In this document: positions 3,487-48,444 of the stretch, one piece after another
How positions within the stretch are numbered: the first letter of the stretch is position 1
Layout of the letters: every line of letters starts with the position of its first letter
NCBI RefSeq assembly: GCF_018918095.1
Contig: NZ_JAHLPV010000018.1
Span: 1-48,873 of the forward strand
DNA length: 48,873 nucleotides
Reading direction: 5' to 3'
Origin: Acetivibrio sp. MSJd-27
GTDB lineage: Bacteria; Bacillota; Clostridia; UMGS1840; HGM11507
The notes under the pieces: model-generated
What the model saw: only the letters and a program-made list of their open reading frames with translations
What the model was told of the DNA's origin: nothing
Databases searched by the model: none
Position numbers and translations under genes: made by a program

Positions 3487-3638
3487 AAGCGGGGTTATAA
3501 CAAGATTGAAATGCTTTTGCGAAGCAAAAAATGCCTTGCAAGCATTTCAACCCTGCGATATTTAAGATATATTCTCACCGTATTAAGAATTCAATACCCA
3601 ACCGTCTGCAGAGACGAGGGTTATAGAAGCGGGGTTAT
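3487..3638. repeat. Repeat-bounded radA-sigma factor intergenic region
   Basis: AGCGGGGTTATA occurs twice, near 3488 and 3628, as direct repeats bounding about 140 bases. Next to the first copy is a relative of the promoter-bearing repeat seen at 36.48 and 46.61 kb (TTATAACAAGATT then TGCTTTTGC). Inside is an 11-bp inverted repeat, TTGAAATGCTT and AAGCATTTCAA. The region carries no gene and leads into the sigma factor ribosome binding site. Confidence 0.5.
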
Positions 3639-7144: not shown

Positions 7145-7148
7145 TTTT

Positions 7149-7291
7149 CCAATAAGGACTTGTCCCGTCATTCAACGAGGACAAGAACACTGCTTGGCAG
7201 TGCCGCAGTCAGCAGGAGATTGCGCTCCCGCTGACTGCGGATATGGAACTCGCCTTCTTTCGAGGCGGGGGACATCTTGCCCACAGTTATA
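7149..7291 (+). repeat. Multi-hairpin dispersed repeat, copy A
   Basis: About 142 bases matching the copies at 27.04 and 48.30 kb. It contains a CTTGTCC/GGACAAG stem, a CACTGC/GCAGTG stem, a 16-bp stem (CCGCAGTCAGCAGGAG with CTCCCGCTGACTGCGG, one mismatch), a CGCC/GGCG stem, and the common end ACATCTTGCCC...AGTTATA. It sits between the ends of two convergent genes. Confidence 0.85.
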
Positions 7292-14974: not shown

Positions 14975-15077
14975 TTCAATAAGGGACATTGCCCCGTTAT
15001 GCAACGATTCAGCGGGAGTACAACCCCCGCCGAAAAAAGAAAGTAGTTCCCAACACTCACAGAGGCGGGGATATCTT
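14975..15077 (+). repeat. Degenerate, shortened copy D of the multi-hairpin repeat
   Basis: The start TTCAATAAGGG, the internal TTCAGCGGGAGTA and the end AGAGGCGGGGATATCT line up with the full copies. The first hairpin and most of the long stem are lost or altered. It fills much of the gap between the fusion flavoprotein gene and the NagB-like gene. Confidence 0.6.
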
Positions 15078-15085
15078 TCTTTTCG

Positions 15086-17740
15086 TTATTTTACAACAAT
15101 GCCGGTGTCAATCATTTCAATGTTTTTATTCGGGCATCTATTAAAGCACATTCCGCAGGCAACACACTCATCCTTGTTGATTTCAATCTTATCAGACAGC
15201 GGATTGTAGATAGCAAACTCGCTGCAGATTGATTTACAAAGCTGGCACCCTTCGCCGCAGCCGCATTTCAGGCATCTGGAAGCTTCTGCAACTGCTTCTT
15301 CCTCCGTCAGTGTTCTGACATAAGTCTCAAAGTTGTTTACTCTTGCCTCAGCATCAACAACATTCAAAGATTTTCTCGGTTCATCTTCGATGAAGTCGTT
15401 TCTCTTCAGGACATCAATCGGATTCACAACGTTGGTTACCGGCTCCCATTTGATGGTAGCTTTATCACCCATGTTGTCTCTGTCGATCGCTGCAGCACAT
15501 TTTCTGCCTGCTGCAATCGCAGCAATCACAGTCTTAACAGTCGTTGCATCACCGCCGGCGTATACGCCTTCAATACTGGTCTTACCATTCTCATCTACCT
15601 GAATCATACCCCATTTTGTTTCGATGTTATGGCAGGAAGCACTGTCCGGCGTTTGTCCGGTTGCGGCGATAACCATACCACAGTTGATGGTATAATCCGC
15701 ATTGACAATTGCCTCCGGTTTTCTCCGGTTGGAGCTGTCCACTTCACCCAGAACCTGGGTTTCCAGAACGATGCCGGAGACCTTGTTGCCATTCTTCTGA
15801 ATCGATTTCGGAGCAGCCAGATAAATAATCTTAATGCCTTCTTCCTCCGCGTCGATAATTTCATCCCCAGTTGCAGGCATTTCGTCTCTGGTTCTTCTGT
15901 ATGCAACATAAACATCTTTTGCGCCCAGGCGTTTTGCAGCTCTTGCAGCATCCATCGCAGTGAAGCCGCCGCCGATAACCACAACGGTATCGCTGACAGA
16001 TTTGATTTTTCCTTCATTGACGTCTTTCAGAAAGTCAACAGCTGTCACAACGCCCTCTGCGTCATCATTTTCAATATTGAGCGTGCGGCCTTTCCATGCA
16101 CCGATTCCCAGGAAGATAGAATCAAATCCTTCTTCTTTCAGACTATCCACTGTGATATCTTTTCCGAAAGCTGTATTATTTACAAATTTGACCCCCAAGT
16201 CTTTGATAGTCTCGAGCTCTTTGTCAAGGATGTTCCTGTCCATACGGAATGTGGGCAGACCATATCTGAGCATACCGCCGCATTCCGCTTCTTTTTCGTA
16301 AACGGTGACATCATAGCCACCCAGAGCCAGGCTGTAAGCCGCGGACATACCTGCAGGTCCCGAACCGATAACAGCGACTTTATGGCCATTTGCTTTTGCT
16401 TTATTGATAGCAGGAGTCCATCCCTGTTTTTCACCATATTCCAGAACAAATTTCTTGATATCCCGGATTGCAATTGCCTCACCGGCTATGCCCCGGGTAC
16501 AGCTCTTTTCACACTCGTGGTTACAGACCCATCCGCAGAGAGACTGCAGTGGACCTTTTTCTGTGATCAGTTCATATGCTCTCTTGAAATCTTTTCTGGC
16601 AACCGCATTGATATACGCCTGAGCCGGAACATTAAAAGCACAAGCAGCTTTACAGGGAGCAGCCAGATTGTTGTCTTTGATATGTGCATAACCTTCGTAA
16701 AGAGTTACATCAGCAGCTGTTTTTACTTTTGATACAATAGCGTCTCTTACATCAGCCAGCGTTTCTTTGCCATGTCTGTGCAGATAATCACGGCATCCAT
16801 CGATCACATCGCCGATGAAATCAAATCCGCTGATCAGAGTTTCGGAACAAATTCCGATCAAGTCAGCTCCGCACATGGACATTTCGACTGCGTCAGACCA
16901 CGTTCTGACACCGCCAGCCTGCATGATTTTCGGTTCAGGACCGTTGACTTTACGGATTTCATAACAGTCTCTCAGTGCAAGCGGTTTTACCCAGGAGCTA
17001 CAGTGGCAGGACATAGAGATTTCATCCTGCAGATGATACGGTGCCTTTGAAGGATCGCCTTCAATGTCAATCGGAGGGATCGCCATCCGGTTGGAAGTAC
17101 CGCCGACCGCATCCGCACCAGCTGCATAACAGGCCTGTGCCACATGTGCAATCTGACCGCCTTCCGGTGTCAATTTGACAAACAGGGGGATTTTGATTTC
17201 TTTTTTGATTGCTCTTACAATTTCAGCAACCGCTTCCCCGTTCATTCCAAGAGAAGCCCCTGTCTTTTTTGTTGAGGCGTTGTCATTGCCGGAAGACAGC
17301 TGTAAGTTAAAGGACATATTCGGGCAGCACATATTCAACTCAATGATATCCGCACCGACTTCCTCAAACTTTTTCGCCATGTTCACCCAGCCGGCAACAA
17401 TATCCCCGTCGCCAGCGTATGTAATATTCGCAAACAGCTTTAACTCCTTGGAAAGTTCCTTCTTTGCATCCTCCATCAGACGCAGCCCCTGTTCAAAGTT
17501 CAGCCTTTTTTCAACCGTAAAGCACAGTGCATTTCTGTCGCTGAACATTGCGTATCTCGGTCTCCTGTTAATATAAGGGGTCGGATCGATGGTCAGTTTA
17601 ATGGATGCGCCGCCCCAGCCGCATTCATCAATTTTTCTCAACTGTTTTACCGACTTGGTTGTAGGACCGGAAGCGACGAAGAACGGGTTTCTGAACTTCA
17701 CGCCGGCAACTTCAACCGGTAAATCAAAATTTCTTTTCAT
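15086..17740 (-). CDS. Fusion flavoprotein: dihydroorotate/dihydropyrimidine dehydrogenase-like domain + GltD-like FAD/NAD(P)H domain + ferredoxin
   Basis: The 884-residue protein joins three modules. Residues 1-325 form a PreA/DHOD-type FMN barrel (FRNPFFVASGPTTKS, ELNMCCPN at 135-141, AGGVRTW). Residues about 355-440 hold iron-sulfur cysteines (CKAAC, LCGWVCNHECEKSC), followed by a GltD/PreT-like domain with an FAD site (GSGPAG at 459) and a nucleotide site (GGGFTAMD at 590). Residues 823-870 carry ferredoxin-type cysteines (CLKCGCGEGCQLC and CVACGMCFNRCP). Electrons probably flow from NAD(P)H through FAD and the clusters to FMN. Animal DPD carries the same modules in the opposite order. 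The cysteine that acts as the proton donor in DPD appears to be missing, so the substrate is unknown. It is in an operon with a MocA-type oxidoreductase and TetR. Confidence 0.82.
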   Translation of the reverse strand: MKRNFDLPVEVAGVKFRNPFFVASGPTTKSVKQLRKIDECGWGGASIKLTIDPTPYINRRPRYAMFSDRNALCFTVEKRLNFEQGLRLMEDAKKELSKELKLFANITYAGDGDIVAGWVNMAKKFEEVGADIIELNMCCPNMSFNLQLSSGNDNASTKKTGASLGMNGEAVAEIVRAIKKEIKIPLFVKLTPEGGQIAHVAQACYAAGADAVGGTSNRMAIPPIDIEGDPSKAPYHLQDEISMSCHCSSWVKPLALRDCYEIRKVNGPEPKIMQAGGVRTWSDAVEMSMCGADLIGICSETLISGFDFIGDVIDGCRDYLHRHGKETLADVRDAIVSKVKTAADVTLYEGYAHIKDNNLAAPCKAACAFNVPAQAYINAVARKDFKRAYELITEKGPLQSLCGWVCNHECEKSCTRGIAGEAIAIRDIKKFVLEYGEKQGWTPAINKAKANGHKVAVIGSGPAGMSAAYSLALGGYDVTVYEKEAECGGMLRYGLPTFRMDRNILDKELETIKDLGVKFVNNTAFGKDITVDSLKEEGFDSIFLGIGAWKGRTLNIENDDAEGVVTAVDFLKDVNEGKIKSVSDTVVVIGGGFTAMDAARAAKRLGAKDVYVAYRRTRDEMPATGDEIIDAEEEGIKIIYLAAPKSIQKNGNKVSGIVLETQVLGEVDSSNRRKPEAIVNADYTINCGMVIAATGQTPDSASCHNIETKWGMIQVDENGKTSIEGVYAGGDATTVKTVIAAIAAGRKCAAAIDRDNMGDKATIKWEPVTNVVNPIDVLKRNDFIEDEPRKSLNVVDAEARVNNFETYVRTLTEEEAVAEASRCLKCGCGEGCQLCKSICSEFAIYNPLSDKIEINKDECVACGMCFNRCPNKNIEMIDTGIVVK

Positions 17741-26990: not shown

Positions 26991-27217
26991 CCTGTCATTC
27001 TGAGCGAAGCGAAGAATCTCAAAGCTGACTCGCCTGGGGATTCAATAAGGGCTTGCCCCGTCATTCAACGAGGACAAGGGCACTGCATAGCAGTACCGCA
27101 ATCAGCGGGAGATTGTACTCCCGCTGATTGCGGATATGGAACCCGCCACCTTAAGAGGCGGGGGACATCTTGCCCGCAGTTATAAGCTGGGAGATTTCTC
27201 GTTTCTCGGAATGACAG
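26991..27217. repeat. Outer inverted repeat (CCTGTCATTCTGAGCG type) split by repeat copy B
   Basis: The left part reads CCTGTCATTCTGAGCGAAGC and on to GAATCTC (26991-27020). The right part, GAGATTTCTCG to GGAATGACAGG (27191-27217), is its imperfect complement. The multi-hairpin repeat copy B lies between the two halves, so it appears to have landed inside an older palindromic element. Confidence 0.7.
27041..27184 (+). repeat. Multi-hairpin dispersed repeat, copy B
   Basis: The 144 bases match copies A and C closely. The long stem is perfect here (CCGCAATCAGCGGGAG with CTCCCGCTGATTGCGG, 16 bp). Compared with copy A, one G-C pair has become A-T on both sides. The outer GGGC and GCCC can close the whole structure. 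Confidence 0.88.
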
Positions 27218-27248
27218 GCAGGCGGCTTTTTCGTTTGTTTTCAGCAGT

Positions 27249-32562: not shown

Positions 32563-32571
32563 TCTTTTGCT

Positions 32572-33630
32572 TCAATAAGGGGCTTTCCCCTGTTCTTTCT
32601 CTAATATTTTCGTATAAAACTGAAAGGCTGACGGGATCGGAAAACGGTCCTGACGCTCTTCTTTGGTTGTCCAGAGAAACCGAGCGCTCTCCTGCTCCAC
32701 ATCAACTTGAAAGCCCTTCATATGCCATTCCACATGGCTGAAAATATGCTTCGCTTTCCCCGTCTCTTTTATGGAAACCATCTGCATTCCCCATTTCTCA
32801 ACCTGTCTTCGTATCTGCTCGTCGCTGAGATACCCGTCCAGGTTGGGAAATTCATATAGCCCTGCCAGCAACCCTTTTTCCTGCCGTTTTCGGATCGCTG
32901 TTTTTTTACCGCAGATCAATAGAAGAACCGTTTTCTCCTCTATTTTCCGTGCTTTTTTTGTATTCTTTTGGGGAAAATCCAAAGGGTTTCCCTGCCTTTC
33001 CGCCTCACAGATCTCTTTCAGAGGACAAATCTCACATTTCGGCAGACCGTTCGGCAAACAAACTGTGGCTCCCAATTCCATCAAGGCTTGATTCATATCT
33101 CCTGCTCTTGCAGGCGGAAGAATATCCCGAACCTTCTCTTCCATCTCCCGCTTTACCTTCGAATCGCTCACATTGGAGTAGTCTGCCGTCACACGGGTAA
33201 TCACCCGCAGCACATTGCCGTCCACAGCCGGCGCGGGTATGCCGAAAGCAATGGAGGAGATCGCCCCTGCGGTATAAGGCCCAATGCCCGGCAATTTCAA
33301 AAGCTCGTCATATGCGGCAGGCAGCCTACCTCCAAACTCCTCCGCAGCGAGCTGCGCTGCTTTTTTCAAATTTCGTGCCCGACTGTAATACCCCAGCCCT
33401 TCCCAGAGCTTCATCAGCTTATCATCATCCGCTTCAGCCAGCGCCGTGATATCCGGCAGCTGTGACACAAACCGCTCAAAGTAAGGCTTTACCGCCTCCA
33501 CCCGGGTTTGCTGGAGCATAATCTCGGAAATCCACACCCGGTAAGGCGTCGGTTCCTCCCGCCAGGGCAACACTCTGGCATTCCTGTCATACCACGCAAG
33601 AAGCGGTTCAACGATCCATCCCAATACCAT
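32572..33630 (-). CDS. mutY: A/G-specific adenine glycosylase
   Basis: MutY removes adenine mispaired with 8-oxoguanine. The 352-residue protein shows MLQQTRVEAVKPYFERF with the catalytic Glu, the helix-hairpin-helix LPGIGPYTAGAISSIAFG, and PAVDGNVLRVITR with the catalytic Asp. A four-cysteine iron-sulfur loop (CLPNGLPKCEICPLKEIC) follows, with seven residues between the first two cysteines, and a C-terminal Nudix-like recognition domain (KHIFSHVEWHMKGFQVDV). The gene begins 23 bases inside the end of the Nudix hydrolase gene, so they are cotranscribed. Confidence 0.95.
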   Translation of the reverse strand: MVLGWIVEPLLAWYDRNARVLPWREEPTPYRVWISEIMLQQTRVEAVKPYFERFVSQLPDITALAEADDDKLMKLWEGLGYYSRARNLKKAAQLAAEEFGGRLPAAYDELLKLPGIGPYTAGAISSIAFGIPAPAVDGNVLRVITRVTADYSNVSDSKVKREMEEKVRDILPPARAGDMNQALMELGATVCLPNGLPKCEICPLKEICEAERQGNPLDFPQKNTKKARKIEEKTVLLLICGKKTAIRKRQEKGLLAGLYEFPNLDGYLSDEQIRRQVEKWGMQMVSIKETGKAKHIFSHVEWHMKGFQVDVEQESARFLWTTKEERQDRFPIPSAFQFYTKILEKEQGKAPY

Positions 33631-36438: not shown

Positions 36439-36476
36439 AACAATGATCCTTTCCGTTTTATAATAGATATGTTTTT

Positions 36477-36527
36477 ATTATAACAAGATAAAAACGCTTT
36501 TGCAAGGCAAAAGCCGTCATAAAAATG
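36477..36527 (-). repeat. Promoter-bearing dispersed repeat, copy upstream of the XRE-cupin gene
   Basis: On the minus strand TTGCAA (complement 36500-36505) and TATAAT (complement 36477-36482) are 17 bp apart, 38 bases before the start codon. The surrounding 50 bases, including the spacer AAGCGTTTTTATCTTGT, closely match a copy in front of rph (46610-46660). Confidence 0.7.
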
Positions 36528-46580: not shown

Positions 46581-46609
46581 ATGTTTCTCCTTCTATCACT
46601 GATTTAAAT

Positions 46610-46660
46610 ATTATAGCAAGATTAAAACGCTTTTGCAAGGAAAAGCCAATATAAAAATGT
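46610..46660 (-). repeat. Promoter-bearing dispersed repeat, copy upstream of rph
   Basis: On the minus strand TTGCAA (complement 46633-46638) and TATAAT (complement 46610-46615) are 17 bp apart. The spacer AAGCGTTTTAATCTTGC and the flanks (GGCTTTTCCTTGCAAAAG) are nearly identical to the copy before the XRE-cupin gene. Confidence 0.75.
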
Positions 46661-48301: not shown

Positions 48302-48444
48302 TTCAATAAGGGCTTGTCCCGTCATTCAACGAGGACAAGGGCACGGCACAGCAGTGCCGCGATCAGCGGGAGACTGCACTCCCGCTGACTGCGGATATGG
48401 AACCCGCCGCCTTAGAGGCGGGGGACATCTTGCCCGCAGTTATA
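48302..48444 (+). repeat. Multi-hairpin dispersed repeat, copy C
   Basis: The 143 bases match copies A and B. The order is: opening TTCAATAAGGGC; stem 1 CTTGTCC/GGACAAG; a short stem 2; the long stem 3, which ends with CTCCCGCTGACTGCGG; stem 4 CCCGCC/GGCGGG; and the closing CTTGCCCGCAGTTATA. Stem 3 carries one wobble and one mismatch here. It lies just past the SPFH terminator. Confidence 0.88.

Follow-up and report, generated by a model that had tools for sequence, protein, structure and literature searches.

The repeat and its copies in the analysed DNA

The 48,873-nt stretch of DNA analysed here, hereafter the window, carries three copies of a 143-bp repeat (A, B and C) together with a shorter, diverged fourth member and a possible left-end remnant (Table 1). 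The three copies had been described in the initial annotation, and they do exist at the sites given there, with 87-93% identity to the copy at 48302. The limits then drawn were right as to the three sites, while TTCAAT and GCAG bound the element proper, and the trailing TTATA is best read as target. The AATAA/TTAT pair, proposed at the same time as a closing stem, is therefore no stem, as it sets the end of the element against its target. The fourth member, absent from that annotation, was recovered by a covariance model built from 40 genomic copies. The placement of the copies downstream of plus-strand genes holds within the window and breaks down genome-wide, where a plus-strand gene is the left neighbour in 16 of 41 cases, a count that rests on simple ORF calling. 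In tandem gene contexts, the top strand of the element runs against the genes (16 arrangements <E< vs 3 >E>).

Table 1. Features of the repeat family and associated repeats in the window
Feature	Position	Strand	Remarks
Copy C	48302-48439	+	Top strand as in the initial annotation; followed by target TTATA
Copy C, end hairpin of the TTCAATAA end	48310-48320	+	GGGCTTGTCCC here; GGGGC..GCCCC in most relatives
Copy C, near-invariant block CGTCATTCAACG	48320-48331	+	Adjoins the end hairpin
Copy C, arm X (GGACAAG)	48333-48339	+	Can pair with CTTGTCC (48313-48319) or X' CTTG (48429-48432)
Copy C, hairpin 2	48342-48356	+	CACGGC/GCAGTG here; consensus CACTGC/GCAGTG
Copy C, 16-bp hairpin	48357-48394	+	Richest in double-sided changes; 4 of 40 copies have an inverted apical loop
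Copy C, CCCGCC/GGCGGG hairpin	48403-48422	+	Near the TTATA-side end
Copy C, ACAT (bottom strand ATGT)	48425-48428	-	5' foot of end hairpin; putative guide tetranucleotide (rule based on PMC5934647)
Copy C, TTATA target	48440-48444	+	Kept on right flank
Copy B	27041-27179	+	TTATA at 27180-27184; sits within the REPIN-like unit
Copy A	7148-7286	+	Begins TCCAATAAGG; TTATA at 7287-7291
Fourth member, shorter and diverged	14975-15085	+	Closing stem X/X' AAAGAAAG/CTTTCTTT; TTAT at 15086-15089
Possible left-end remnant	32571-32590	+	TTCAATAAGGGGCTTTCCCC only
REPIN-like unit	26991-27218		CCTGTCATTCTGAGCGAAGCGAAGAATC ... TCTCGGAATGACAGG; uninterrupted version in L284 near 19102 (- strand)
Second dispersed repeat family	3493-3528, 36476-36511, 46609-46644		Starts TTATAACAAGATGAAAACGCTTTTGC; also in L007, L012, L023, L027 and L029

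Ends, modular interior and distribution

Members of the family have two different ends in common, namely TTCAATAA-hairpin-CGTCATTCAACG on the left, where TTCAATAA starts 175 of the 180 elements, and a CCCGCC hairpin followed by GGACAT, X' and (N)G on the right, after which comes TTAT. Variable hairpins lie between these ends, and the lengths of the elements span about 50 to 470 bp and peak near 118 and 140, down to minimal copies composed of the ends only (L027/L055, about 50 bp, and L213). The ends thus appear to be recognised with no need of the interior, which allows versions of 50 to 470 bp to coexist. In the host genome and in the other MAGs inspected, paired ends are always less than 500 bp apart and enclose no gene; the long end-to-end distances returned by a loose pattern proved to be chance matches.

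In the host genome (3.05 Mb), the covariance model gives 135 places at E up to 0.01, made up of about 44 near-full-length copies, a tail of several dozen shorter relatives and reverse-strand echoes of the palindromes, and a BLAST-type search gives at least 40 copies. There are 58 exact occurrences of the left-end core CCGTCATTCAACG, or 75 when one mismatch is tolerated (control 2), and 83 matches to the right-end pattern at up to two mismatches (control 3). Three further genomes from the family gave no match to the 143-bp query, and the left-end pattern was without a match in 397 other genomes sampled across the phylum. A scan of GTDB contigs with the pattern CAATAAGGGN{3,9}CCCGTCATTCAACG retrieved at least 101 stretches, and among the matches listed nearly all belong to Oscillospiraceae, Ruminococcus, Ruminiclostridium, Clostridiales or Clostridia MAGs. 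The common ends, TTCAATAAGG-hairpin-CGTCATTCAACG ... GGACAT-N-G followed by TTATA, recur in 20 or more other MAGs, most of them Oscillospiraceae; the 20 of these genomes that were counted hold 1 to 65 copies each as judged by exact left-end matches (control pattern 0). Among 2.9 million viral contigs the left end was matched once and the right-end pattern was unmatched; this single match is low for an active element and counts against the mobile reading.

Rfam searches at gathering and at permissive thresholds returned nothing credible for the repeat, and a literature search for papers giving its sequence or similar repeats found nothing relevant. These sequences apparently constitute a large, uncatalogued family of short gene-less mobile elements of gut Oscillospiraceae and their kin.

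Insertion at a one-sided target

The copies have sharp ends, and their flanks are unrelated right up to these ends. The left flank is near random, and the right flank reads TTATA, with A as the fifth base at 89% in a search whose pattern itself required TTAT; among 40 copies collected free of that requirement, 39 have TTAT on the right. Nested insertions lie exactly between the right end of another element and its TTAT (L062, L122, L142, L179 and L225), and others lie in the second repeat family (L016/L066 and L061). Furthermore, copy B interrupts the REPIN-like unit, and once it is excised in silico the remainder matches the uninterrupted unit with no duplication. Unrelated flanks, a one-sided TTATA, nested copies and the site of copy B together establish insertion without duplication that is specific on one side only. 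Loci fetched from different MAGs were too diverged for an orthologous empty-site comparison. The idea of a palindromic mobile unit (REP/MITE-like), put forward in the initial annotation, is supported by the many dispersed copies, the sharp ends, the nested insertions and the one-sided target.

Fold, covariation and closing stem

All four stems of the plan originally drawn for the repeat are present, and the three window copies fold far better than shuffled sequences (z -6.0 to -6.4, with 0 of 200 shuffles as good). The covariation test that the initial annotation had recommended was carried out on 40 copies, in which 94.8% of cells pair, as compared with 34-47% when the structure is slid by 1-3 columns, and 32 double-sided changes were counted, for a shuffled mean of 10.7 and with none of 500 shuffles reaching that number. 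The single compensatory change noticed earlier in the 16-bp stem is real and is accompanied by far more such changes among these copies, seven of the eight pairs that bear double-sided changes being located in this hairpin. Within the stems of the 143-bp copies, G-T mismatches are as frequent as A-C mismatches (25 vs 26), so that neither of the two strands resembles an RNA under selection. Four copies with differing stem backgrounds (L021, L027, L028 and L037) show an exact inversion, from AGATTGCACT to AGTGCAATCT, of the 16-bp hairpin's apical loop. The structure of the 143-bp copies therefore looks selected, or corrected, as DNA rather than as RNA. Two other subfamilies show G-T in excess of A-C (37/17 and 18/10), for pairs whose choice, made by RNAalifold, is biased.

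A further stem closes the element by pairing X' with the distant X, and the two segments change together from one subfamily to another (GGCAAG/CTTGCC, ACGACT/AGTCGT, AAAAGTAAG/CTTACTTTT, AAATTAAG/CTTAATTT and AAATGAAG/CTTCATTT). The complement of its own X' was found in 59 of 157 elements, as compared with 10.5 on average and 19 at most in 500 trials with X' swapped between types. In the 143-bp type, X and X' form only a short stem, CAAG/CTTG with flanking pairs, in competition with the pairing of CTTGTCC and GGACAAG.

Such strong compensatory changes, a very stable fold and a closing stem that stays complementary across subfamilies of different species are also what would be seen in a family of structured RNAs (regulatory RNAs or small RNAs) multiplied by duplication. 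This reading is unlikely, and we attach very little credence to it, given the balance of G-T and A-C mismatches in the 143-bp copies, the mixed orientation to neighbouring genes, the want of any Rfam family, the sharp insertion junctions with nested copies and the free loss of interior modules; for the 143-bp copies, where the loop inversions moreover suggest events at the DNA level, the structured RNA family initially offered as an option is unsupported. It is conceivable, if short of probable, that the compensatory changes are the correction of imperfect palindromes by replication template switching, in which case covariation would be silent on function and a mobile element would be equally compatible with it. 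The inverted loops on differing stem backgrounds speak for this explanation, and because of them part of the covariation may stem from palindrome correction during replication; the confinement of most double-sided changes to the longest hairpin points the same way. The distant X/X' stem argues against it, since its covariation between subfamilies is not readily produced by local palindrome correction. A word of caution follows, in that strong covariation in intergenic repeats need not imply a functional RNA.

Search for an enzyme or an autonomous partner

No autonomous element with these ends was found in the host genome or in 20 incomplete MAGs, and no copy carries a gene. An IS200/IS605 or RAYT transposase with matching ends, which the initial annotation advised looking for, did not come to light. 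In the host genome, PF01797 matches only IS200-like fragments, most of them at contig ends and with other ends than the repeat, and PF01797 (Y1) matches occur in 10 of the 20 other element-bearing MAGs, where the ends of the IS200-like copies inspected differ. RAYT-like genes are present in 5 of 21 genomes, none of them flanked by the element.

Two RAYT-like genes, L262 (G000:C7:23242-23770) and L263 (G000:C7:79113-79610), have their own short palindromes (GGGACGATGTGGGCATCGTCCC; GGGGCGAACTGTGTTCGTCC), some of which lie inside the coding frame. Located by the search at C7:23257 and C7:79118, these genes were considered as partners and rejected on account of their own hairpins, a copy of the element about 600 bp off one of them being no flank. 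A TnpB guide RNA (reRNA) was likewise considered for the bottom-strand end hairpin-TTATTGAA and dismissed, as no gene lies within any copy, and a Helitron/IS91-type reading, considered from the end sequences, is unsupported.

Proposed mechanism

The repeat is probably a PATE/REP-like non-autonomous element, moved in trans as single-stranded DNA by an enzyme of the HUH/Y1 type. Its presumptive active strand is the bottom one, on which TATAA is followed, across the putative cleavage point, by C...ATGT-hairpin(CCCCCGCC/GGCGGG), variable cargo hairpins and CGTTGAATGAC-hairpin(GGGGC/GCCCC)-TTATTGAA. A single-strand transposase of the HUH/Y1 type, acting in trans, would bind both end hairpins and cleave on the 3' side of TATAA and of TTATTGAA; the excised single strand would be rejoined 3' of another TATAA without target duplication. 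The covarying closing stem and the cargo hairpins would fold the element compactly as single-stranded DNA.

IS608 keeps TTAC on its left, and the bottom-strand TATAA of the repeat likewise lies on the 5' side (PMC5934647). From the published IS608 pairs TTAC/AAAG and TCAA/GAAT (PMC5934647) we derived a rule in which positions 1, 2 and 4 of the guide are complementary to positions 2, 1 and 4 of the target. For a target ATAA this rule predicts the guide ATNT, and the hairpin foot has ATNT in 144 of 157 elements; the search pattern itself called for ACAT and tolerated a single mismatch, which overstates this conservation, so that the test lies in the fit of the putative guide ATNT to ATAA. At the other end, the guide CANT expected for TGAA is absent from CGTTGAATGAC-hairpin-TTATTGAA, which we count against a Y1-type enzyme. 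In the host genome the bottom strand favours the G-rich, gene-sense strand (39 vs 17, p 0.005), a bias that insertion into the lagging-strand template would give (PMC6006769). In other genomes the skew test gives a non-significant 58 vs 45 (p 0.24) and the gene-strand test a significant 63 vs 40 (p 0.03), gene direction and replication direction being confounded in these counts.

That another enzyme (such as a plasmid-type Rep, or a rolling-circle or unknown integrase) or template switching in host replication, rather than a Y1 transposase, moves the element seems doubtful to us. Half of the element-bearing MAGs are without a recognisable Y1 gene and most are without a RAYT of the searched type, the guide rule fails at one end, and the loop inversions show strand switching at the hairpin. 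Nevertheless, IS605-type elements and PATEs are typified by a one-sided target, the absence of duplication, hairpins at the ends and copies made of the ends only (PMC3119063), and the scarcity of genes weighs less in MAGs, which lose multi-copy IS genes in assembly, the IS200 genes of the host genome itself lying mostly at contig ends. More speculatively, the repeats could form a widespread, undescribed superfamily of gene-less single-stranded-DNA elements in Oscillospiraceae and their kin, maintained and propagated by an HUH-type enzyme that is domesticated or unknown; the covarying long-range closing stem would then serve recognition or circularisation, a role with no known counterpart in IS200/IS605 elements.

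Comparison with known systems

PATEs, for example the HqIRS families of Haloquadratum walsbyi, are transposase-free and have near-terminal palindromes and a one-sided target without duplication (PMC3119063). The repeat is akin to them in having near-terminal palindromes with neither a transposase gene nor terminal inverted repeats, a short one-sided target without target duplication, and end-only versions (about 50 bp, vs 52 bp in HqIRS), and in being often inserted beside other elements (PMC3119063). It departs from them in its interior, with conserved extra hairpins and a covarying closing stem, in its spread over many species with conserved ends, and in that no IS605-type transposon with matching ends was found for it in the host genome and the 20 incomplete MAGs. 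As the related IS605-type transposon was not found, we withhold PATE membership proper.

Movement of RUP depends on a DDE IS and involves terminal inverted repeats and duplication of TA, and the 143-bp repeat shows neither of these two features; terminal inverted repeats and target-site duplication, the features of classical (DDE) MITEs, are absent in the copies inspected. RUP and BOX of Streptococcus pneumoniae resemble it as small, dispersed, transposase-free repeats (PMC3049150). With REP, BIME and REPIN sequences and their RAYT (TnpA-REP), the repeat shares an intergenic location, many copies, the lack of an autonomous copy and hairpins whose foot is preceded on the 5' side by a candidate tetranucleotide (PMC6006769). 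It is distinct from them by its length (140 nt vs 21-65 nt) and its two different ends (PMC6006769), and by the absence of a GT[AG]G-type guide 5' of the hairpin, where the bottom strand has ATGT instead; the hairpins that belong to the RAYTs of the host genome are unrelated to the repeat, which does not flank these genes. End hairpins, a target on one flank, a candidate guide at one end and the strand bias of the host genome recall IS608 and ISDra2 (PMC5934647), from which the repeat differs by having no tnpA/tnpB, by the failure of the guide rule at the right end and by its target, TTATA/TATAA as opposed to TTAC or TTGAT (PMC5934647).

The elements apparently make up an uncatalogued superfamily of PATE/REP-like gene-less mobile elements. 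They add to gut bacteria a high-copy and apparently uncatalogued mobile hairpin family, with up to 65 exact left-end matches per MAG, and with hundreds of elements, modular interiors and covarying stems they offer a clean natural data set on the recognition of single-stranded DNA folds, which also serves the question of spread without an autonomous partner.

Associated repeats

Other repeats accompany the element. The end of the second dispersed family (on the reverse strand ...CATCTTG, followed by TTATAA) is similar to that on the right of the 143-bp element, for which it provides an insertion site. A third repeat (TTATAAAAAGTTTTTCATTCTGAAAAACG ... CCTATG) abuts the element in L018, L019, L030, L035, L038 and L065, which suggests another TTATA-associated family. 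Finally, a different transposase-free element, with the terminal inverted repeat GCATTAGAGAATCGAAC and flanked by TTAA, occurs in either orientation within the CCCGCC hairpin loop (L034 14294-14596, L057, L063 and L067).
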